DNA from: a virus
Length of the DNA: 33,006 nucleotides
Strand: one strand, 5' to 3'
IMG/VR virus record: IMGVR_UViG_3300032893_000209
Span: 1-33,006 of that record
Part shown: piece by piece, positions 1 through 23,177 of the stretch
Layout of the letters: each line of letters opens with the position of its first letter
Numbering within the stretch: the first letter of the stretch is position 1
Made by a program: the position numbers and the translations under genes
The notes under the pieces: generated by a model
What the model was told of the DNA's origin: nothing
What the model saw: the letters and a program-made list of their open reading frames with translations, nothing else
Databases searched by the model: none

Positions 1-2535
1 GCACTTACAGCGCTACTCAAATTTTGCCGGGAAGAAAAGATCAATTTACCACTCATTGTCAACTCGGGTGGTGGTATACATGCATATTGGCCAATTGAAG
101 AAACACTTGAAATACCTGAATGGCGAACTAAAGCTAGCGCATTCAAGGATTTCCTTAATAGCAAACATTTACACGCCGACCCAGCTGTTACCGGAGACGC
201 CGCGCGTATATTACGTGTTCCAGAAACCTCCAATTACAAGACCTCTAAGCCAAGAAGAGTTTCAATATTGGCAAATAACAAAGGGTTCTTCAATTGGACA
301 TACTCCGAGCCACAATCCGATCTCAAACTTAATTATCAAACCGAACCAGATGCCATAACTCAAGCTTTAATAGGAAATATAGAAGCAAGTTTTAAAAAGA
401 TACTTTCTAAAACTCTTAAAGGAGAAGGCTGTGGACAAATTAAGAGAATTGCGGAAGATCAAGAAGGTATTGGAGAACCACTATGGCGCGCAGGTTTGTC
501 GGTGGCGCAATTCTGCACTGATCGTAACGTTGCCATCCACGCAATATCCAGTAACTATCACGGCTACTCTGCCGAAGAGACCGATAGGAAAGCGAGCCAG
601 ATCAAAGGACCGTATACCTGCGCCACTTTCGAAAGTCTCAATCCCGGAGGGTGCGATGGGTGCGCGCTTAAAGGTAAGATTACGTCGCCAATCCAGATCG
701 GGAAAGTTGTTAAAGAATACAAAGGAGAAGGGACCGCAGGAACAAGCGATGGAAATAGCGGAACGGCAATTTCAATTCCTAGAGACTTCCCCAAGGGATA
801 CTTCCGAGGACAAAATGGCGGTATTTACCGAAGAGTAACCAAAGGAGAAGAGGTCGAGGATTTTTTGATTTACGAACACGATATGTTTGTAACCAAGAGA
901 TTCTATGACATGGATAAGGGCGATGTTATAGAAGTAAATTTAAAACTCCCACATGATGATTTGCGTACTTTCTTGATGCCAATGCGTGGTTTGATGGCGA
1001 AGGAAGGGGTTCGGCAGGAGTTTGCAAGTCGCGGCGTTGCCTTGGTTACTAAATATATGGATTGGTTGGTTGAATATATAATCGGTTGGGCAAATCACCT
1101 ACAGCGTAAAGAAAGAGCAGAAATGGCCAGACTACAAATGGGATGGACTCCGGAGAACCACTTTGTATTGGGGGATATAGAAATTACTCCTGCGGGCAAC
1201 AAATGGACTCCTCCAAGCCCATCCACCCTGAATGTGGTCAGCGCCATAGGTCAAAAAGGAACGCTGGAAGAATGGGATGCCATTTTAAATGAAGTATATG
1301 GACGAGAAGGAACCGAGGCCCAAGCGTTTGCTTTGCTAGCAGGCATTGGGGCTGTACTTTTTAAATGGACCAATCTGGAAGGGGTAGTTTTAAATTTGTT
1401 GTCTAGAACAAGCGGCACCGGTAAATCCACGCTTTGCTACGCTATAAACAGCACCTATGGGCACCCCCGCGACTTGCTGCTGACTAAGGCAGACACTTTT
1501 TTATTCACCCAGCAACGCATCGGCATCATGTGCAACCTCCCAGTAACGGTGGACGAGATAACCAATTGGACTCCGGAAACTGCTAGCGAATTCGCATATG
1601 GCATAACGCAGGGGCGTGGCAAGCACAGGATGAAGAATTACGCCAACGAAGAACGGATGAATATAACGAAGTGGTCTACTATCGCTGTAACTACGTCCAA
1701 TGCCAGCCTATACGACAAGTTAAACATTATTAAGAAAATGCCTGAAGGAGAGATGTATCGTATTTTTGAAATTTTTATTCAATCCTTTAACCAAATGTCA
1801 AAGGAAGAAGGCGATAAAATTCTTCACAAGCTTTCCGATAATTATGGTCAGGCAGGTATGTTATTTCTGGATTTTGTAGTTAAAAATTTAACGGCAGTAA
1901 AAGCTAAAGTGCTTAAAGTACGTGCGGACTTCGACCGAGTAGTTAATATGACCCCAGCAGAACGTAATTGGTCCGCACTTATGGCCTGTGCTTTTACAAC
2001 CGGAATGATTTTCAAGTCTGATCTGGGACTTCTTAAAGCTATAGATTTGGATAAAGTTTATGAGTATATGATCCAAACAATTCAAGAGGTACGGAAAAAT
2101 ATTCGAAAAATAGGAGTTAACGGAAGCAGCCTTCTTGGGCAATACTTAAATGAAATCTATAGCAACGTGTTGGTAATTGATAATGCCATAGATAAAAGAA
2201 ATCAGAATATGAACAGGGCTGCTCTTAAAGAGCCTAAAGGTGAATTGCTAGTACGGGTAGAACCAGATACCCGGAAAGGTTATATAACCGCAGGGCATTT
2301 CAGAAAATATTGTGGCGACCAGCAAATCCCCTACGTAGAAATTCTGAAAAATTTAATAGACCGTGGGATTATTTTAAGAACGGAGAAAAAACGGATGGGA
2401 AAGGGCACTTCGATTAATACTCCTCCGGTAGAAGCCCTTGTTATAGATTGCAACCATCCGGAGTTTGCTTTTGAATTACCAGTCGAGGACGAGACAACTG
2501 AGAATAAAAACAAAGTCTCCGTGGGGAGCAGTTAA
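1..2535 (+). CDS. Phage primase-helicase (AEP primase + P-loop ATPase), 5' end outside window
   Basis: The frame is open from base 1 to the TAA at 2535 (844 residues visible), so the gene starts left of the window; the TTG at 268 is internal. Residues 19-80 look like the second half of an archaeo-eukaryotic primase (AEP) domain: NSGGGIHAYWPI supplies the motif II histidine (His27), and ADPAVTGDAARILRVP (Asp60, Asp66, Arg69, Arg72) fits the motif III area. A Cys207-x10-Cys218-x2-Cys221 cluster suggests a small zinc site. A DUF927/D5-like helicase core follows, with Walker A SGTGKST at 471-477 and Walker B VTVDE ending at Asp518-Glu519. The expected role is priming and unwinding at the phage fork. 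The catalytic motif I acidic residues are not visible, so primase activity is inferred from the family. The gene is convergent with the structural operon and ends in terminators. Confidence 0.85.
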   Translation, partial: ALTALLKFCREEKINLPLIVNSGGGIHAYWPIEETLEIPEWRTKASAFKDFLNSKHLHADPAVTGDAARILRVPETSNYKTSKPRRVSILANNKGFFNWTYSEPQSDLKLNYQTEPDAITQALIGNIEASFKKILSKTLKGEGCGQIKRIAEDQEGIGEPLWRAGLSVAQFCTDRNVAIHAISSNYHGYSAEETDRKASQIKGPYTCATFESLNPGGCDGCALKGKITSPIQIGKVVKEYKGEGTAGTSDGNSGTAISIPRDFPKGYFRGQNGGIYRRVTKGEEVEDFLIYEHDMFVTKRFYDMDKGDVIEVNLKLPHDDLRTFLMPMRGLMAKEGVRQEFASRGVALVTKYMDWLVEYIIGWANHLQRKERAEMARLQMGWTPENHFVLGDIEITPAGNKWTPPSPSTLNVVSAIGQKGTLEEWDAILNEVYGREGTEAQAFALLAGIGAVLFKWTNLEGVVLNLLSRTSGTGKSTLCYAINSTYGHPRDLLLTKADTFLFTQQRIGIMCNLPVTVDEITNWTPETASEFAYGITQGRGKHRMKNYANEERMNITKWSTIAVTTSNASLYDKLNIIKKMPEGEMYRIFEIFIQSFNQMSKEEGDKILHKLSDNYGQAGMLFLDFVVKNLTAVKAKVLKVRADFDRVVNMTPAERNWSALMACAFTTGMIFKSDLGLLKAIDLDKVYEYMIQTIQEVRKNIRKIGVNGSSLLGQYLNEIYSNVLVIDNAIDKRNQNMNRAALKEPKGELLVRVEPDTRKGYITAGHFRKYCGDQQIPYVEILKNLIDRGIILRTEKKRMGKGTSINTPPVEALVIDCNHPEFAFELPVEDETTENKNKVSVGSS

Positions 2536-2667: not shown

Positions 2668-5600
2668 CTACATAGCGCTTGCGGTCTGCAGCGTCTTCAT
2701 TACTTCTTCAGTGATCTCCCGTACTTTCATCTTTATATCTTTAATACGTGCGGCCTTTTCATCATCCGATAAATGTTCATCGTCAGTAATGCGCTTCTGC
2801 TCCGCTCTCATAGTGGACAATTGTTTAGTAAGGCCAGCCACTAACGGACTCAGGGCCATCATTTCCGCGTTCGTTTTGCCAGTCGGGGATTCCGCCTTGG
2901 CATACTCCTCAGCTTCTTTAATACGTCCCTCCTGAATCATGGCGTCGTAAGTCGCCTTTGGCTTGCTAGTTAAATCTCTAAGTTCGTAGAGCAAGTCTGT
3001 AGTGCGCGACTGAGTAGGATTGGTAAGGAATGCACGAACGCCGGGGCGTTCAACAAATGGCTTGGTCGGTTTCTCACCGACGCCGTCTTTTTCAAGAACA
3101 GGGTCAAGAACCGCAGTAGTAAGGAAAGTTCCTACGCTACCGAAATAGCCACGAAGTAAATGATCCACCATCAGCGGAGAAAGCGCGTTCGATCCCAAAG
3201 CCTTGGCGGTTTCGCTGGTTCCTTCCGTGAAGCGCTGCGCGCCTTCTTTACGCAATTGGGTATCACTTTCAATCGGCTTCCCAGTATAAAAATCGTGGTT
3301 CGACAGGACTTCATATAAAGGTTTTGTAGCCTGCGGCTGTAATCCCGGAAGCTGATTAAATAATGCTTGTCCCATATCGTTAATCATTTGGCGTCCGGAT
3401 TGATCGCCGTTCATTAAACGAATCAGGTTCTCCGGAAGTGTTTTAGCTACAACTCCGATTTCAAAAGGAATGGGCAGTTTTAAAAAGGTATGATCCCCAG
3501 CAGGAATTAACCAAGCATTATCCGCAGTCTGTTTCTTGACTTGTTGATAGTCCTTATCGTTTGACATGATCATGGCATAGGCTGTACTAGCCGCAGCCAT
3601 GCCGAGCATCTTCCCAGCCAGCATTTTTCGGGCTTCCTCGGGTCCTCCGGGGGCTTCATTTCTAGCTAAAGCCCGATAAATTTTGTACCAACCCTGAAGA
3701 TTCGAGTTAAAGAAGGGAATTAATTTCTTAGCATAGGTTATAGCCGAGCCAGACCCACGCATACGCCAGTCCAGCACGTTAGTAGCAGCCATAATCCCTT
3801 CCTCAACGCTGCCAGTGCGCTTCTTAATGTCTTGGAAGACCCGTTCGCGGGTAGCCAATTCGCTCTCTCCAGTAAGGTTCTGGAGCAGATGGTGAACAAC
3901 TTTTAGCGACCGATCAGCCTTCTCAGCCCAATCTTTAGCAGGGCTGGCCCCAAACTCCGCAGTTAAAGCTTTACGAAGCATGGCTTCTTTCTCACGAACC
4001 AACGAAGTCATTTCCCGAGAACCGGTCAACCCAAAATAAACTACTTCGTGGTTGGGTACATGAACGCCACCCTTAGTGATTTCCTTGCTTATATCAGGCA
4101 TTGACTTGGCAAATTGACCAGCAACCTTAGCCCACGTTTTTAAAAGATTGTCATGGGTATAACCAAAGGCCCAAGCTTCCGTCGAGTCCCGGAACATGTT
4201 GCGCGCTATGAAGTCCGGAGACAAAGTAATCGCCTCGCGGAAAAGGGCGGTAACACCCTCAACAGCGTTCATCCATGCCGGAGCCTGTTCCTGCAAGCCT
4301 TGGAAAGATTTAAAAGCGTGCTTATCTTCAACCGTATAGTAAGTACGGTGGCCATCTTCCCAAACTTGAATTACGTTTTGTTTCTCAATAGGCTTGCCTA
4401 CTATTTTCTGAAGTCCAGCTTCCCCGGCATTTTGCAGGTATTTAATGGCTGCAACCGAGGCTTGGTTGCGTATTCCGGCATCCGTCATGAAGAGACGCTG
4501 GCGAATGATGTTTCCCAGAACGTCATCAATGGGACGATCCGAGCCAGTAAATTCCCTGAGCGTGCGAAGGTTAACTATCCTGCCAGCACCACGCATGACC
4601 ACAGATTGCTCAACATCATCCATCACCCGACCAAGGTTTACATAATACTTATTTTGTCTCCAGTCGTTAGCAACATCGTTGCTTATCATCCCGGTCTTTT
4701 CATAAAAATCAATATCGTGCATGTTCATATTGCGCACAATATCTAACATTTTACTGACCTCTGGAAGATTGGCAGCTTCCTTAGCTTGAGCCATTGACTC
4801 GTCGGTAATGTAATCAGGCCGCTCATATTGCAGTTTCTTAAGTAATTTAGCCGCCTGTTTCTTGGCGATCTTGGCCTTTCTTATAGTTTGATAAGCCGCA
4901 GGACCCGACATTCCCTTGGCATTTTTGATCTTTTCATTGGCCTGATCTATTACTTTACGGGCGTTCTCATCGGCTATTTTGGCTTTATCAAGACGCTCAG
5001 CATAAGTAAGATTAGAAGTTATCCGATTAAAAGCATGAACCTTATCGTCTCCCAAACTAGCGGGGAGAGATTGCATCGCCTGCATCAAAGTACCGATGTT
5101 ATTTTCTTCATCGCGCTTAACAATCGGCATACCTTTTTCAGTGAAATCCACATACCCAGTAGTTAAAGAAGTACCTGCAAGCTGGGTTGCGTACTCCATA
5201 CGCTGGATCAAGGCGGCGGGATTAAGAGTGCCATCCTTCAAGAATGTAGACCCCGGCATAAAGCGGGTAATCCCATATCTTTGATTGAAGCCAGTTCTCT
5301 CCAACCAGATCATCGCGTCATGCCATGCGGCAGCCATGGATGACATTGGAGTTTTTCTAGCTTCTTCGGTCTTACGTACTCCGGTCTCAAAGAAGCCGCG
5401 TTCCTGCGGGGCTTTCTCGCCTTCTAATAATGAATCGAAATGGTGTTCAACTTGAGTACGATCAAACCATGCAGGATGGGGCTTGGCTAATAAAATATTA
5501 GACAGACTAAGGGTGCGGGTAAGGGCATTTTCTAATCCAACCATCCTAGCAATTTCATGAACAAACTTATCCCATAAGGATTTAAGAGCCGCACCAAATC

Positions 5601-8600
5601 CTTCGGCTTTAGAGCTTATAGGTTGCTTCTGTAAGAAATTCTGGAAATCAACATTAGAAAAAGCTTCCGCTACAAACTCTTTGAGGTTATCGAATCCATA
5701 CCTATAACCTTCATGTTGTTTTCGTTGTTTAAGCGTATTATATAAATTTTTAAGCGCCCAATAAGCCTTCTGTTGCGTAGCAGTTAAATGACGAAGGTCT
5801 CCATCATCAACAGCTTTCATTATGGTATTTGTTAAAGCATGAGCGACTTCATGCAGGACCGTATGCTCATTCAAACCATTAAAACGAGGATTAGAGTTAA
5901 GAAGAATTTCATTATGTTCCGGTAAATAAGCGCCATGAGAACCTTGGTTAACATTGCCATATCTACCATCTGTTAAGGTATCGAAATCTACTACTCTAAC
6001 TGTAGTATTAGGCGCTAATTCAGCAAAACGTCTGGCAATCGAACGATTTACAAATTGGTAAGAATGTTCCCCAAGATTTTTGAGAACGTCATTCAATCGG
6101 CCTAATCTAATAAGACGTTCGTTAAGGGGAGACAGAGGGACACCCCCACCTTCAAAAACATGCTCAACCCTATTACTTTCTATCCCTCTATCCAATAATT
6201 CCTCAACAAGCGATTCCTTCCCTTTAAGACCAAGGAATTTACGAAGATCGGGGACGAGACTTTTGTTTTTCTCTACCCAGTCTTCTATGCGCTTACGTGC
6301 CCCCTCCTCATCCCCTGCATGAATTAAATTACCCGCGCGTTTAACAATATCATCCACTTCTCCCATGCGTCCTCTAAGGACGCGAGTCATCTGCCTTACA
6401 TTCTCAGTGTCTTCCTTAAATATCTTATAAGGACCGCGCTTTTTGCCCTCACGCTCGCTCGGACCGTGAGAGGCTTGTTTTAAGAAAGTAGACTGAAGGT
6501 TCTTTTCCTTATCTAAAGCTTTACGATATTTCTCCTTGCCTCTATCACTTAAATTTTCATTGATCCACTTTTCAGCATTTCTAGCCGTATGTGGACTTAT
6601 TTCTTTGTAAGGTTTGCTTAACTGGCCTTCACCTTTACTCCAGCCAGTACCTTTGGCGTTCATTTCCTTCTTGCCTTCGTTCATACCCCAAGTACGATGG
6701 AAGGCTATTTCTTCAAAAGCTTGATCTACTCCACCGGCATCCCGAATGTATTTACCTAAAGGATTACCTCTGTCCGTAGTTACTGCGGCTATTTTTGCTT
6801 TGTCTTGATTGTCAGCTTCCTGCTCTTCCGGGGTAAGAGTTTTTTCTTCTTCTTTAAACTTTTCACCGCTCGGCTTGCGTTTAGCTTCTTCTTGCGCAAG
6901 GAATTCCTGAGACGCTTTAATTGTTCCAGTAACGTTCGCGGGATCATAATCTGCCTCATGTAAAGGACGAGCTTTTAGTGCAGGCTCGACTGTTCCTTCT
7001 CTGACATTACGCTCCCCAGCAGTTCCGCCAGATTCTTCCAGTCTTCCGGCATCAGTTTTCTTAGATGCGGCGGTACTTCCTTCCTTAGATGCAGACACTC
7101 CCACGCTTGGCTCACTTCTTCCAGCGACATTTTCAGGAGGTTGCTTTCCCTCATTTCCACGGATTCTAGGTTCAGCGGCATTTTCAGCACCTTTCCAACC
7201 CTTGGCTTCAAGATTTTCTTTCCACTTAGCAAGAGTTTCTTGTTTGGCTTGGTCTTTAGTTTTGGCTATTAAATCATCAATACGGGCATGTACCGCCTCG
7301 GGAGTATTAGCACCTTTAAGTTGGCCAATGTAATAAGTATAAGAATGCACCCCCGGTTTTTCACCGCGAGTTTCCACATAAGCATCATGTAGCGTAGAAG
7401 TTAATATATTTTGGCGTTCTTTGGTTCTATTAACTGGAACATCTTCCGCAAATACAGGCTTTATAGGAGTTACATTCTGATGCGAAGGTATAGTCTCCAA
7501 TCCTTGGTCATGCTGAATAAATGCATTCGAAGGACTTTTTCCAACCGGGGCAAAAATATTTTGCTCGGTAGAAAGCGCGGCAGTTCCTAAACCTTCGCCT
7601 GTACGATCTAATGGAGTACCCCGAGTACCTTCTTCAAGGGAGAATCCAGAATCATAACCAAAAGGGGTATGCCCACCTAAAAGATTGGCGTTTTTCTTTT
7701 TACGTTCCGCTTCTTCTTTTGCAAGTTGCTCTTGCCTTGCCCGTTCATCTATGTCATATCCAGCTAATTCATTTTGGGCATTAATTTGATCTTGTTTTAA
7801 TCTTTCTTGTCCCAATCTGGAAATTTCGGCGGGGTATCCCGATTCAAATTTCTGAAGTCTTTCTCCCCGCTCGCCACGAGCAGCAGCACGAGTACCACCC
7901 AAACCACCAGCCAAAGCACCCAAGAGGCCCATTGGGACAGCAGATTCCACCATTCGGTTGGGATCATAATTTTCTCCTAACGCGGCTTGTGTAATCCCTT
8001 CTGTTCCCGCTCCTACAGCAGCAGCGATAGGAGTTTCAGTAGCTATTGATTTAAGTTTGTCTTTCCACCATGGTTGTTCAGAAAGTACTTTAAGTTCGGC
8101 GTCAGAAAGCTGTGAGATGGCCTTTTTACCAAAAGCTCCTCCGATGATGCGGCCCACAGGCAAAGAATATAAAGCAGCTTCAGGAATGGAAGCCAAACGA
8201 GCCGCAGCCGTAGCTTCTTCTGGAGATTTACCTTGTTGAAGTCCTCGTTGATAAACCCCATGAGCTATACCGGGCAGCATACTAAGACCAGCCAATCCAG
8301 CGCCGACAGCCGCAGGCGCTCCACCTATTGCCGCAGTACCAGCTACAGCAAGCGGTACACCAGCCTGTACTCCCATTCTGCCAACCTGTTCACCCAAATA
8401 TTGTTTAATTCCACCCCAACTCGGCTGATTTCTGAGTTCTTCAAATGTTTTAGGCTGTATTAAGGGAGCTTCCGGTTTTTCTTCTTCTGGCTCCATTCCA
8501 GCTAAAGCTTTAATACCGCCCGTAAATTCAGGAAGAAGCTGGGAATAAGCTTCCTTAGCCCCCCGCTTTAAACTAGGAATGAATCCTTTTTGCTCTTCGA

Positions 8601-8721
8601 TTTCCCGCTGATACAACTCGGGAAATTTACGCATTACCTTTTCACGAATTTCATCCTCAGAGTATTTATCGTTAATACCCTCGATTACACGACCATCAGG
8701 AAGGATAAAACTTTTAGCCAT
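2668..8721 (-). CDS. Giant polyvalent internal virion protein with HEVAH metalloprotease motif and LPD38-like C-terminus
   Basis: This 2017-residue protein is the last gene of the minus-strand run. The N-terminus (1-60) is a short folded unit beginning MAKSFILPDGRVIEG. Residues about 100-290 contain Gly/Ala-rich hydrophobic stretches that could insert in a membrane, and 290-760 are charged and low in complexity. A zinc metalloprotease signature follows: HEVAH at 957-961, with KEFVAEAF at 1014-1021 offering Glu1015 or Glu1019 as a possible third ligand. The region of about 1490-1900 (for example ARNMFRDS around 1506-1513) resembles LPD38, a large polyvalent protein domain described from phage proteins injected with DNA. 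I infer that it is packaged and ejected and may cleave a host or virion protein. Its ATG overlaps the upstream stop codon (TAATG). Domain assignment is from memory; the protease motif is seen directly. Confidence 0.75.
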   Translation of the reverse strand: MAKSFILPDGRVIEGINDKYSEDEIREKVMRKFPELYQREIEEQKGFIPSLKRGAKEAYSQLLPEFTGGIKALAGMEPEEEKPEAPLIQPKTFEELRNQPSWGGIKQYLGEQVGRMGVQAGVPLAVAGTAAIGGAPAAVGAGLAGLSMLPGIAHGVYQRGLQQGKSPEEATAAARLASIPEAALYSLPVGRIIGGAFGKKAISQLSDAELKVLSEQPWWKDKLKSIATETPIAAAVGAGTEGITQAALGENYDPNRMVESAVPMGLLGALAGGLGGTRAAARGERGERLQKFESGYPAEISRLGQERLKQDQINAQNELAGYDIDERARQEQLAKEEAERKKKNANLLGGHTPFGYDSGFSLEEGTRGTPLDRTGEGLGTAALSTEQNIFAPVGKSPSNAFIQHDQGLETIPSHQNVTPIKPVFAEDVPVNRTKERQNILTSTLHDAYVETRGEKPGVHSYTYYIGQLKGANTPEAVHARIDDLIAKTKDQAKQETLAKWKENLEAKGWKGAENAAEPRIRGNEGKQPPENVAGRSEPSVGVSASKEGSTAASKKTDAGRLEESGGTAGERNVREGTVEPALKARPLHEADYDPANVTGTIKASQEFLAQEEAKRKPSGEKFKEEEKTLTPEEQEADNQDKAKIAAVTTDRGNPLGKYIRDAGGVDQAFEEIAFHRTWGMNEGKKEMNAKGTGWSKGEGQLSKPYKEISPHTARNAEKWINENLSDRGKEKYRKALDKEKNLQSTFLKQASHGPSEREGKKRGPYKIFKEDTENVRQMTRVLRGRMGEVDDIVKRAGNLIHAGDEEGARKRIEDWVEKNKSLVPDLRKFLGLKGKESLVEELLDRGIESNRVEHVFEGGGVPLSPLNERLIRLGRLNDVLKNLGEHSYQFVNRSIARRFAELAPNTTVRVVDFDTLTDGRYGNVNQGSHGAYLPEHNEILLNSNPRFNGLNEHTVLHEVAHALTNTIMKAVDDGDLRHLTATQQKAYWALKNLYNTLKQRKQHEGYRYGFDNLKEFVAEAFSNVDFQNFLQKQPISSKAEGFGAALKSLWDKFVHEIARMVGLENALTRTLSLSNILLAKPHPAWFDRTQVEHHFDSLLEGEKAPQERGFFETGVRKTEEARKTPMSSMAAAWHDAMIWLERTGFNQRYGITRFMPGSTFLKDGTLNPAALIQRMEYATQLAGTSLTTGYVDFTEKGMPIVKRDEENNIGTLMQAMQSLPASLGDDKVHAFNRITSNLTYAERLDKAKIADENARKVIDQANEKIKNAKGMSGPAAYQTIRKAKIAKKQAAKLLKKLQYERPDYITDESMAQAKEAANLPEVSKMLDIVRNMNMHDIDFYEKTGMISNDVANDWRQNKYYVNLGRVMDDVEQSVVMRGAGRIVNLRTLREFTGSDRPIDDVLGNIIRQRLFMTDAGIRNQASVAAIKYLQNAGEAGLQKIVGKPIEKQNVIQVWEDGHRTYYTVEDKHAFKSFQGLQEQAPAWMNAVEGVTALFREAITLSPDFIARNMFRDSTEAWAFGYTHDNLLKTWAKVAGQFAKSMPDISKEITKGGVHVPNHEVVYFGLTGSREMTSLVREKEAMLRKALTAEFGASPAKDWAEKADRSLKVVHHLLQNLTGESELATRERVFQDIKKRTGSVEEGIMAATNVLDWRMRGSGSAITYAKKLIPFFNSNLQGWYKIYRALARNEAPGGPEEARKMLAGKMLGMAAASTAYAMIMSNDKDYQQVKKQTADNAWLIPAGDHTFLKLPIPFEIGVVAKTLPENLIRLMNGDQSGRQMINDMGQALFNQLPGLQPQATKPLYEVLSNHDFYTGKPIESDTQLRKEGAQRFTEGTSETAKALGSNALSPLMVDHLLRGYFGSVGTFLTTAVLDPVLEKDGVGEKPTKPFVERPGVRAFLTNPTQSRTTDLLYELRDLTSKPKATYDAMIQEGRIKEAEEYAKAESPTGKTNAEMMALSPLVAGLTKQLSTMRAEQKRITDDEHLSDDEKAARIKDIKMKVREITEEVMKTLQTASAM

Positions 8722-10288: not shown

Positions 10289-11239
10289 TTATCCCGTCAT
10301 TTTACCAAGCGCAGCAGCGCCTAATCCGAGGCCAGCTACTTGGGAATAAATATTAGGCTGAGGCAAATAGGTCGTAGTATTAATAGAAGGTTGTACTGGT
10401 ACACCACCCATGATTCCAGAAAGCCAAGACAGTTGCTGCATGGGGAACAACTGCTGGTTCATATAATCCTGATAGCTGGTATTAAGTGCTTGCTGTCCAG
10501 TAGCTTGTTGAACACCGCCAGTTTGCCCAAGACCAGCAATTCCTTGAGAGGCTATTTGTCCTGTACCCAAAGCAGTTTGAAGTTGACGCGAAGCATCTTG
10601 CCCAAACATATTCTGTGCATTTTGATATGCGGCATTCTGGCCTTGCATCGCAGTTTGGGCCATTACCTGTTCTAAATTACGTTGTGCTTCCGCGCTTTGA
10701 AGACCAGCACGATAACCGCCATAAGCTCCAGATTGCTGTTGTTGACCTTGAAGTTGTTGCTGATTAATATCTCCTTGCCGTTGCAATTCTTGTAAAGCTA
10801 TACCTGTAACATTTTGCTGATATGGACTCATGTATTGTTGGGCAATATTATTATTCCAAGTCTGCCCAGCATTCTGAAGAAGTGCGGGAATCCCACCCAC
10901 TACTTGTTGTCCAGCAGTTCCGTATCCACTAGCTAAATCGTTGGCCTGTTGTTGACCAGAAGTTAAATCTTGTACGCGAGGACCATTATAAGTAGGATAA
11001 GCTTGGGTGCTAACATCCTGCGCCCTATTCATCATACTGTTGTAATACGGTTCCGCCCACGGAGGAAGTTGACTCGATTGAACTGTACTAGTAGATGGAG
11101 CGGCAGCTTGTTGGCTACCGCCTCCTCCTTTTCCACATTGGGCTACAGGGCCTTCATATTCATAGGAATCCGAATCAACAATTTTATATTGTTGAGTTTT
11201 TTCATCCCATTCATATTCGACTCTAGTGTAGATTTTCAT
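10289..11239 (-). CDS. Gln/Gly-rich putative internal virion protein
   Basis: This protein of about 316 residues has a folded-looking acidic N-terminus (MKIYTRVEYEWDEK) and then a long Gln/Asn/Gly/Ala-rich body. Short helices there are built around phrases such as YMSPYQQNVTGIALQEL and QQQLQGQQQQSGAYGGYR. The C-terminus is Gly/Ala-rich and hydrophobic (VAGLGLGAAALGKMTG). It has no transmembrane helix of standard length and no catalytic motif. I chose the ATG at 11239 because it overlaps the preceding TGA as ATGA, the junction style used across this operon. An ATG at 11254 would add five residues. Composition and position suggest a DNA-ejection or core protein like the internal proteins of podoviruses. 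I recall similar proteins in environmental podoviruses, but the function is not demonstrated. Confidence 0.6.
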   Translation of the reverse strand: MKIYTRVEYEWDEKTQQYKIVDSDSYEYEGPVAQCGKGGGGSQQAAAPSTSTVQSSQLPPWAEPYYNSMMNRAQDVSTQAYPTYNGPRVQDLTSGQQQANDLASGYGTAGQQVVGGIPALLQNAGQTWNNNIAQQYMSPYQQNVTGIALQELQRQGDINQQQLQGQQQQSGAYGGYRAGLQSAEAQRNLEQVMAQTAMQGQNAAYQNAQNMFGQDASRQLQTALGTGQIASQGIAGLGQTGGVQQATGQQALNTSYQDYMNQQLFPMQQLSWLSGIMGGVPVQPSINTTTYLPQPNIYSQVAGLGLGAAALGKMTG

Positions 11240-11649
11240 TTTATCCACCGACATTCTTCTTTAAGCATTCCATAGGCGATTAAATCATCGTCCCCAAATC
11301 CCCAACGCATATTGCCTTCGTATTTAAAACCCATTCTTTCAACCATACTTCTAGAAGTTTTATTCTTTTTAGCGCACAAAACAGTAAGACGTATACAATT
11401 ATTATCAATAAATGGATATCTAAATAAAGCTCGTAGAACTCTACGACTAGCCCAATTAGATTTCGGTTCTACCGCAATACTCGCTCTCATGTCGTACCCG
11501 TTGTAATCGGAGTACACAACAGCCCCCAGCAATCTCTTTTCGTCTCCAAAGCCAATGCACGTTGCTGTATCCGAAAATTTGTCTTTCATTCCCGGAATTC
11601 GAGAGCGTACCCACTCTCGAAGATCGCATCCGCCTACGATGTAAATCAT
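11236..11649 (-). CDS. GNAT-family N-acetyltransferase
   Basis: This is a complete 137-residue single-domain protein. Residues about 38-62 form the strand pair LLGAVVYSDYNGYDMRASIAV. Residues 67-79 hold the Arg-rich helix ASRRVLRALFRYP, where the acetyl-CoA pyrophosphate loop normally sits. Residues 86-112 give strand and helix with the GNAT motif B hallmark: N96, S99, then ERMGFKYEG at 104-112. Enzymes of this fold move an acetyl group from acetyl-CoA to an amine. The substrate cannot be told from the sequence. The canonical Q/RxxGxG/A loop is degenerate (WASRRVLR), which is common in phage GNATs. It lies between internal virion protein genes, 3 bases after one and overlapping the next by 4. 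It could modify a virion protein or a host target. Confidence 0.8.
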   Translation of the reverse strand: MIYIVGGCDLREWVRSRIPGMKDKFSDTATCIGFGDEKRLLGAVVYSDYNGYDMRASIAVEPKSNWASRRVLRALFRYPFIDNNCIRLTVLCAKKNKTSRSMVERMGFKYEGNMRWGFGDDDLIAYGMLKEECRWIK

Positions 11650-21189: not shown

Positions 21190-21828
21190 CTAAACATTTC
21201 TTAAATATGCTTGTTGTACTGTATTAGTCCCCGAGTAGGACGACCCACCATTGAATGAAACTCCAATAAAACTACTAGCTACAGTAGTATCGAATCCACT
21301 GGAAGTAACTAAAATCACTCCACTACCAGAAGCGCCAGTAGATATTAAACCTGTTGCAGCTAAAGCGTGCGTGCATCGGCACATTCCGACCATAACCCCA
21401 GAAGCGCCAACGCTTCGTACATGCGCCCATACTTCAAAAATACCTGTATCTGCAGCAGCAGTACCAGCACCAAAAGTAAATGTTAAACGCGCAGTATCGG
21501 CAATGGTTCCGTTGGTTCCAATTCTAATAATAACAGTAGTAGCGGCAGTACCAGCCGCCGTTTTCGCCATATCAAACACAAAATAATACGATGAGCTAAC
21601 ACGAAGCAAACCGGGAGGAATTGCTAAACTAGAACCAGTCATATAAGTATCAGCAGCAAATCCGGTTTGGTTTGCAGTAGTAGTAGTAACAACATCATCT
21701 ACGGTATCTACAGTTCCGGCATCATTTTTAGTAGTTAATTTTTTAGTTACATTATCAAAGTAAATGATTCCTTGCCCCGCCGCTGGGGTAGTTGGAATAC
21801 TCTGGGTATCAAGAAGAATCTGGGCCAT
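21190..21828 (-). CDS. Fibre-like beta-rich structural protein
   Basis: This 212-residue protein begins MAQILLDTQSIPTTPAAGQG and IYFDNVTKKLTTKNDAG. That N-terminal pattern is common in phage fibre proteins, where a short strand repeat precedes a globular head. The remaining 150 residues form a Thr/Gly/Ala-rich beta domain resembling a jelly-roll, with long strands (SYYFVFDMAKTAAG, TTVIIRIGTNG, GIFEVWAHVRS) and a Cys pair in MCRCTHA. The gene follows the collagen-like fibre gene with a one-base stop/start overlap, so the two may form a combined fibre. The function is inferred from composition and position. Confidence 0.55.
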   Translation of the reverse strand: MAQILLDTQSIPTTPAAGQGIIYFDNVTKKLTTKNDAGTVDTVDDVVTTTTANQTGFAADTYMTGSSLAIPPGLLRVSSSYYFVFDMAKTAAGTAATTVIIRIGTNGTIADTARLTFTFGAGTAAADTGIFEVWAHVRSVGASGVMVGMCRCTHALAATGLISTGASGSGVILVTSSGFDTTVASSFIGVSFNGGSSYSGTNTVQQAYLRNV

Positions 21829-23177
21829 TACGTTATACGAAGTTGCGAAGTACCAGCCAATGCAATTTGTTGAGCACCAGTAAGTTTTATTACTTTAGAA
21901 GCTACGGCATACTGTTCAGTATTAACAGTAAATGATCCGGGACTATAAGAACCAATAAAAGCGGGAGAATAAGTTACACCATTAAAATTATTTGGTTGTG
22001 TACCAGCTTCATAAAAACCCCAATCGTTTGTGGCAGTTCCAGCAGGAACAGTACTGTAAAATTGATAACGATTAGTTATACTTCCCCCACCATCGGCCTG
22101 AATATAAGCTCCATATAAATTAGTAATAGTTGAACCAACATCAAAAATCCCCTGTAAACGAAAACCATATGCGGAAGTAATAGTGGTAGCGGTTTCAGTA
22201 CTAATGTCCATAAAAATACCATTAAGCTCTACGTGAGTGCCTGCTGAAACATCGGCTACAATATTTTCAATTATAAGAGAATTAGAAGTAAAATCGCCCG
22301 TAATATTCATACTAGAAACAGAGCAAATACCAGTATCTAAAGCTCCTGTACCTCCGACACTAAAATCAAATTCATTGGTAAATAAATTACCTCTTACGTG
22401 ATTACTACCAGAAACCATCTCTGTGATAGAAGACCAAACAGCAAATCCCGGTTCATCAGCAGTGGGATCATATTCAATAGAATTAAAAATAACAGAAGCA
22501 ACGGGAGTTAAAGGAGTTGTCGCTGTAGTAAATACTCTAGTAACTTGCACATTATTATTAAATTGTTGAGGTCCATTTTGCGTATGCATCGCAAAATCAT
22601 AATCTAAATCTGGAGGATAAAAGAAAGGTTCTTCAGGCGGCTGAGAATCCAAATTTAAAACAACCCCAGCAGCAGAACTACCACTACCTGCGGGACCTTG
22701 CGGACCTTGTATACCTTGAGGTCCGGGAATCAGCATCGGAATATCAGGCTGATCCGGTTCTAAAAAAAGAGCGACACCCGGTAAACCTTGAAAACCTTGA
22801 ATGCCTTGTATTCCTTGTATTCCTTGTGGTCCGGGAATATGAAATCCGTCTTCCCCATCCATCCCATCCATCCCAATAATAGAATTCCCATCACGACCAA
22901 TCGTTCCATTAGCTCCCGCTACACCCGCAGGGCCGGGGACCATTAAAGGATCATCAGGTTGATCAGCTTCCAATAAAATAGTAATCCCCGGCGCTCCTTG
23001 AATTCCAATACCGGGAATCCCTTGTGGTCCTTGAGGACCTACAATTGGAAAACCATCTTCCCCAGAATCACCATCGGCTCCGGGAGTACCAGCAGCGCCA
23101 GCAGGACCTTGAGGACCTGTTCCACCAGCAACGAAATAATCGAAATTACCAGTAAAAGGATTAAAAGTATAAGGCAT
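21828..23177 (-). CDS. Collagen-like fibre protein
   Basis: This 449-residue protein has an N-terminal tag (MPYTFNPFTGNFDYF) and, from about residue 19 to 165, Gly-x-y collagen-like blocks (GPQGPAGAAGTPGADGDSG and GPQGIQGIQGIQGFQGLPG). These are broken by acidic, non-collagen stretches containing ILLEADQPDDP and LFLEPDQPDIP. A partial third copy (LNLDSQPPEEPFFYPP) leads into a C-terminal beta-rich domain (about 190-449). That domain has long strands and a probable beta-helix or jelly-roll fold. Collagen-like triple helices occur in phage head and tail fibres and form rod-like trimers, so this is probably a virion fibre. Both neighbours overlap it by one base. Confidence 0.75.
   Translation of the reverse strand: MPYTFNPFTGNFDYFVAGGTGPQGPAGAAGTPGADGDSGEDGFPIVGPQGPQGIPGIGIQGAPGITILLEADQPDDPLMVPGPAGVAGANGTIGRDGNSIIGMDGMDGEDGFHIPGPQGIQGIQGIQGFQGLPGVALFLEPDQPDIPMLIPGPQGIQGPQGPAGSGSSAAGVVLNLDSQPPEEPFFYPPDLDYDFAMHTQNGPQQFNNNVQVTRVFTTATTPLTPVASVIFNSIEYDPTADEPGFAVWSSITEMVSGSNHVRGNLFTNEFDFSVGGTGALDTGICSVSSMNITGDFTSNSLIIENIVADVSAGTHVELNGIFMDISTETATTITSAYGFRLQGIFDVGSTITNLYGAYIQADGGGSITNRYQFYSTVPAGTATNDWGFYEAGTQPNNFNGVTYSPAFIGSYSPGSFTVNTEQYAVASKVIKLTGAQQIALAGTSQLRIT
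22683..23123 (-). repeat. Duplicated collagen-like unit (about 70 residues)
   Basis: Within the collagen-like gene, GEDGF-x-IxGPQG at residues 39-50 recurs at 108-119, and LLEADQPDDP at 68-77 recurs as FLEPDQPDIP at 138-147. Both spacings are 69-70 residues, so the unit is a tandem duplication of a collagen block plus an acidic insertion. Confidence 0.7.

Follow-up and report, generated by a model that had tools for sequence, protein, structure and literature searches.

Polyvalent phage proteins carrying a zincin-like metallopeptidase (MPTase) were described in 2017 by Iyer et al. (PMC5512222), whose proposal was that the peptidases serve to process the polyvalent protein, be it ahead of packaging, inside the head or once injected, and that some may attack host proteins. 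In that study the domain LPD38 is restricted to phage-type polyvalent proteins; the main text mentions it once and does not describe the protein considered here. An HExxH motif has also been noted in the C1 domain of the N4 virion RNA polymerase (vRNAP; PMC12633501), and residues 268-528 of the PhiM1 tetrameric ejection protein were called an 'endolysin/exotransglycosidase-like domain' on the basis of BLASTP and DALI (PMC11440229). The gene studied here lies in a stretch of 33,006 bases (henceforth the window), which is the entire IMG/VR virus record IMGVR_UViG_3300032893_000209. It encodes a giant 2017-residue phage protein that, like the proteins of Iyer et al., combines several distinct domains in one chain (MPTase and LPD38), the MPTase having an HEXXH motif and a downstream Glu. 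The protein thus belongs to the polyvalent proteins of Iyer et al. and is not a new kind. We read it as an ejected polyvalent protein whose peptidase may act after ejection and whose C-terminal module may serve as an anchor, an overall explanation to which we give a probability of about 0.5. A first-pass annotation, made by a model from the letters of the sequence, had given the extent and length of the open reading frame (ORF) correctly and had named no strand; the gene lies on the minus strand. The features on which the argument depends are as follows.

2668..8721, minus strand: gene for the polyvalent and probable ejection protein, 2017 amino acids, a single ORF, with full-length-type relatives at loci L104 and L035
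5482..6054, minus strand: zincin-like metallopeptidase domain, residues about 890-1080, predicted from alignments, profile search, AlphaFold and Foldseek
5839..5853, minus strand: HEVAH, residues 957-961, predicted to provide two zinc ligands and the general base, invariant in both alignments
5677..5679, minus strand: Glu1015, probable third zinc ligand, invariant and located in the following helix of the model
2701..4794, minus strand: LPD38-containing C-terminal module, residues about 1310-2007, from homology with phage proteins
3061..3558, minus strand: Pfam LPD38 (PF18857) match, residues 1722-1887, E = 2.7e-34

HEVAH is the sole HEXXH in the protein, and the KEFVAEAF-type motif that the first-pass annotation placed downstream of it was found as well, with the sequence E-F-V-A beginning at Glu1015. 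An HEXXH arises by composition in 6.4% of shuffles, and an HEXXH with a correctly spaced E-[FLY]-x-[AS] in 0.04%, the second motif having been chosen post hoc. Since HEXXH alone is unremarkable at this protein size, conservation had to decide. In an alignment of 11 diverse phage sequences, whose members were not chosen by motif, H957, E958, H961, T964 and E1015 are the only invariant positions; the same five are invariant, together with F1026 and L1030, in an alignment of 44 sequences, 43 of them from IMG/VR, where loci were found by motif. The invariance of the five residues holds at 18-28% identity. As a guard against circularity, we considered loci that held only one of the two search patterns: HEXXH was present in 71/71 loci found with the E-motif pattern only, and the E-motif in 6/6 found with the HEXXH pattern only, and on this cross-retention a chance HEXXH was rejected. 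The annotation had offered Glu1015 or Glu1019 as the conserved Glu and had named homologues without His-Glu-His as a refutation: His-Glu-His and Glu1015 are kept among the homologues, and Glu1019 is variable (W/Y/T/G/Q/E), which leaves Glu1015 as the candidate for the third ligand. A tblastn search with residues 778-1129 matched 150 phage records, of which the best were phiKMV-type internal virion proteins (LUZ19 gp37, E = 3e-7), followed by proteins of Rhizobium, P. putida and Limnohabitans podophages and of crAss-like phages; a virion RNA polymerase from Schitoviridae matched weakly. Viral and genome contigs scanned with single sequences gave no match, and for profile scanning the 11-row alignment (A1) was too divergent, while alignments A3 and A2 worked. 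A plasmid search gave no convincing relative, and phmmer with the whole protein gave no match in the PDB.

Profile and model comparisons agree with the motif. The alignment profile matched in the PDB the chain 9sfn_G, an 'Internal virion protein' (6e-24) that itself matches LUZ19 gp37 along its entire 1337 residues, the PhiM1 tetrameric ejection protein 8vb2_A (1e-14) and gp10 in 23sg_S (1e-7), as well as the zincins lethal factor (1.5e-6) and, weakly, IrrE (0.02). The AlphaFold model of the peptidase region (321 amino acids) has a mean predicted local distance difference test (pLDDT) score of 77.5, with values mostly of 77-96 in the stretch that begins at the third-last helix ahead of the sheet and ends with the helix of E1015. 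Its order of elements (in model numbering, helix H104-116, strands E121-125, E144-147 and E152-156, helix H166-186) agrees with the zincin order of Iyer et al., that is, a helix, three strands, the HEXXH helix and a later helix with Glu: HEVAH is model residues 171-175, inside helix 166-186, and Glu1015 is model residue 229, in the following helix 227-236. The annotation had named an unstructured or non-peptidase location of the motif as a refutation; the model places it in a structured zincin-type core. Foldseek against viral models gave 22 matches at or below 1e-3, among them a phiKMV-like internal core protein, a phi14:2 structural protein, a virion RNA polymerase and polyvalent proteins. 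Overall, the invariant ligands, the zincin topology of the model and the profile matches to ejection proteins bear out the metalloprotease call, and residues about 890-1080 are, as judged from alignments and model, a zincin-like metallopeptidase domain.

The relatives of this domain are found in proteins of otherwise different build. The phiKMV/LUZ19 gp37 (9sfn_G) and PhiM1 gp48 (8vb2) proteins are virion ejection proteins with a homologous peptidase region in which all ligands are kept, but their C-terminal part is unrelated to that of the window protein and they are shorter (1263-1337 amino acids). Whole-protein homology of the T7 gp16 or phiKMV gp37 type was not found, only the peptidase region matching LUZ19 gp37 and its relatives. 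The vRNAPs of Schitoviridae (N4 and Acinetobacter XC38) and gp076 of the crAss-like phage phi14:2 are giant virion proteins that include a related zincin domain, attached there to RNA polymerase or other modules, and no LPD38 was detected in those examined. Similar in plan is a 'large polyvalent protein' of the Planktothrix phage Pag-Yong1 (UMO75972.1), in which a similar MPTase is followed by a C-terminal LPD38; the portal and stabilization-type proteins of this phage are 44% and 33% identical to those of the window. However, UMO75972.1 is longer (2772 amino acids) and has a second HEXXH at 559, and its peptidase is weakly similar to ours (E = 0.009 over 67 residues).

These relationships bear on how phiKMV-type ejection proteins are annotated. 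PhiM1 residues 268-528 contain the HEXXH...E region homologous to the window peptidase, and records of phiKMV relatives are labelled 'endolysin domain' or 'exotransglycosylase'. No glycosidase was found by Pfam in LUZ19 gp37 or three relatives. The 'endolysin' or 'exotransglycosylase' label on these proteins is, to judge from their sequences, likely a misannotation, and we suggest that this widespread annotation be revised. Loci L002, L009, L010, L013 and L014 and the PDB entries 8vb2 and 9sfn carry such a label and have the HEXXH...E region. One crAss-like record is already labelled 'zincin protease'; a literature search, mostly without subscription papers, found no statement of a peptidase in phiKMV-type proteins.

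The annotation had also recognized LPD38 at the C-terminus, and the Pfam match (119.4 bits against a curated cut-off of 27) agrees with this; the extent of about 400 residues that it gave was too short, homology with phage proteins covering about 700. In 81 proteins, between 9 and 34 residues (median 19) separate the end of the LPD38 module from the C-terminus. The LPD38 profile gave nothing significant against the PDB, and no clear second enzyme was found in the window protein. To see how peptidase and LPD38 are combined, we collected 160 IMG/VR loci with either domain. The peptidase occurs without LPD38 in 79, LPD38 without this peptidase in 78 (a raw count of 79 had included one spurious antisense ORF) and both together in three (L035, L104 and L179), so that with the window and Pag-Yong1 there are five fusions in total. 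The alignments of L104 and L035 to the window protein span 1207 and 1124 columns, respectively, at 31-32% identity. Many LPD38 giants without this peptidase carry another HEXXH, often in the form RHE[AS]xHALK[DE]LGFF, which resembles the clade of Iyer et al. that has an Asp three residues after HEXXH (PMC5512222). A motif 'GHEGRHR', separate from the usual HEXXH motif, recurs in nine LPD38 giants (L108, L110, L111, L116, L123, L128, L134, L136 and L156).

Most peptidase-only proteins share one C-terminal family of ~1000 residues (72 loci and one isolate by single linkage), in which Pfam LPD39 was found in 31/34 scanned members and which matches the PHROG of DarB-like antirestriction proteins. 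These sisters (L024, L027, L033 and others) have the same peptidase in the same slot as the window, beside a convergent DUF927 gene, but differ in that their C-terminal module is mostly LPD39 and not LPD38. The window, L035, L104 and 60/67 peptidase-only loci with enough flank all have the convergent DUF927 gene beside the giant gene. By hhalign the LPD38 and LPD39 modules show no detectable homology, and an earlier weak local match between the two did not hold up in that comparison. Because the same peptidase occurs in the same slot before different modules, we conclude that non-homologous C-terminal modules are exchanged behind one peptidase at one locus, which suggests interchangeable jobs for them, for example in packaging or anchoring. 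The peptidase tree lacked resolution and favoured neither a single origin of the MPTase-LPD38 fusion nor more than one, the DUF927 tree is compatible with a single origin, and neither tree tells the direction and number of the exchanges. Neither peptidase nor LPD38 is present in the large proteins encoded towards the end of the late cassette in DSL-LC04, HTVC023P, HTVC027P and CRP-901, so the slot itself is variable. In DSL-LC04, HTVC023P and HTVC027P, a helicase gene occupies the convergent place held by DUF927 in the window. In the peptidase-bearing locus L034, one uninterrupted ORF of 4148 codons encodes two peptidase domains that belong to this clade (residues 1363-1490 and 3358-3498).

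Two neighbouring genes help to place the giant gene in its cassette.

10289..11254, minus strand: probable DNA-ejection protein gene, PHROG 4287 (E = 8.5e-4), 36% identical to a DSL-LC04 protein
268..2535, plus strand: DUF927 gene, convergent with the giant gene (Pfam DUF927, 6.9e-22)

The late cassette ends with the giant gene, the probable ejection protein gene lies two genes upstream of it, and the DSL-LC04 counterpart of the latter belongs to a cassette that ends with a 'DNA transfer protein'. By portal and stabilization-type protein, the cultured relatives of the window are DSL-LC04, Pag-Yong1, HTVC023P/027P and Roseobacter CRP-901/902. Relatives of the peptidase region are present in virions according to structures (PhiM1 gp48 and LUZ19-type gp37) or, for phi14:2 gp076, according to detection by mass spectrometry as stated in its record. 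The position in the ejection cassette and these relatives make the ejected protein proposed in the first-pass annotation probable, and we consider the window product very probably an ejected virion protein with a genuine peptidase. Injection into the host is suggested by the same relatives and by gene order.

The explanation that we prefer is that the protein would be a podophage internal virion protein, which is packaged into the head and leaves it together with the genome on ejection. Its anchor in the head or ejectosome would be the LPD38 module (LPD39 in the sisters), as the extreme C-terminal position and the exchangeability of this module suggest. The peptidase would act after ejection, a timing that we favour because N4 vRNAP reportedly enters the particle unprocessed (PMC5512222) and because long chains are present in PhiM1 and LUZ19-type virions. 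The likeliest substrate would be either the polypeptide itself, once ejected, or its partners in the ejectosome, the N-terminal part being freed from the anchor module; we rate such self- or ejectosome-processing as the main job of the peptidase at somewhat less than an even chance. Several observations weigh against this explanation. Evidence for presence in virions comes from relatives of the peptidase domain only, and a packaging role for LPD38 is something that we infer. The model of the LPD38 module consists mostly of helices and has moderate confidence (pLDDT 68), with no significant fold match by Foldseek. For the peptidase model the PDB matches by Foldseek are weak (the best are lethal-factor zincins, E = 0.28, probability 0.72), and neither 8vb2 nor 9sfn appears in the 50 matches listed. 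We identified no cleavage site, and from one relative to another the sequences on either side of the domain are not homologous, a pattern that agrees with a fixed external target at least as well as with self-cleavage.

Such a target could be a host protein involved in defence, the envelope or regulation, cut early in infection by a peptidase for which the rest of the polypeptide is a delivery vehicle. Conservation of the domain while its neighbours are swapped for unrelated modules is expected with an outside target, the match of the sister C-terminal modules to DarB-like antirestriction proteins points the same way, and host targets are listed as a possibility by Iyer et al. (PMC5512222). 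However, no target is known, no relative has been shown to cleave a host protein in the literature consulted, and the domain is present also in structural tetrameric ejection proteins. We rank a host target second to self- or ejectosome-processing because there is no target evidence, and regard it as rather unlikely. A good deal less probable is a role in the passage of the ejectosome across the cell wall, with the domain cleaving cross-links of the peptidoglycan. Names in this sense are given to the homologous region in the PhiM1 paper and in many records, and no peptidoglycan hydrolase was found by Pfam and PHROG scans among the scanned neighbouring ejection-cassette genes of the window; but HEXXH with Glu is a protease signature incapable of glycosidase action, the Pfam result for LUZ19 gp37 and its relatives argues against a glycosidase, phiKMV and PhiM1 have a separate lysozyme-like protein beside the ejection protein, and the best fold relatives are protein-cutting zincins. 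Slightly more improbable still is processing of the protein itself or of other head proteins during virion assembly, before packaging: P1 DdrB, which has such a domain, is cleaved before head entry (PMC5512222), but the unprocessed N4 vRNAP speaks against it, as do the PhiM1 gp48 and LUZ19-type gp37 entries, which are long chains of 1263 and 1337 residues. That the fold is merely structural or the motif coincidental is very improbable, since a purely structural domain should lose the five invariant residues, which include all predicted ligands, even though no activity is known biochemically for this clade in the literature consulted and the PDB fold matches are weak.

Peptidase-bearing polyvalent proteins were predicted in 2017. 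The link from the window protein to phiKMV/LUZ19 gp37, PhiM1 gp48 and N4 vRNAP, for which there are solved structures and laboratory hosts, makes the question of what such a peptidase cuts directly testable. A broader and doubtful extension of our explanation is that one zincin peptidase might be a general part of podophage ejection (in phiKMV-type, N4-type and crAss-like phages and in the Pag-Yong1/HTVC023P-like phages of the window), with LPD38, LPD39 and other anchors exchanged behind it; the 'endolysin' domain in ejection proteins of the phiKMV type would then be this protease, and it would cut a target common to these phages once ejected.

The remaining features of the giant protein lie in its N-terminal part, and its start codon, ATG, shares bases with the stop codon of the preceding gene (TAATG).

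8602..8721, minus strand: N-terminal element, residues 1-40, '..LPDG..VE....S.E.....VM..FP..', seen by eye in L024, L035, L104 and L179
8251..8376, minus strand: Gly/Ala-rich hydrophobic stretch, residues 116-157
7894-7953, minus strand: second Gly/Ala-rich hydrophobic stretch, residues 257-276

Both Gly/Ala-rich stretches may have a role in membrane insertion. The record is probably a viral genome fragment, because the apparent C-terminal part of a terminase gene (identified by eye) runs off its right end and the nearest cultured relatives have genomes of 52-65 kb. Within the ejection cassette there is a GNAT-like acetyltransferase gene with weak Pfam matches (11236-11649, minus strand), and a gene annotated as GNAT (gp34) is found at a comparable place in Roseobacter phage CRP-901. 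The structural cassette encodes a 449-amino-acid protein with collagen-like repeats (21828-23177, minus strand; Pfam Collagen, 4.7e-9).

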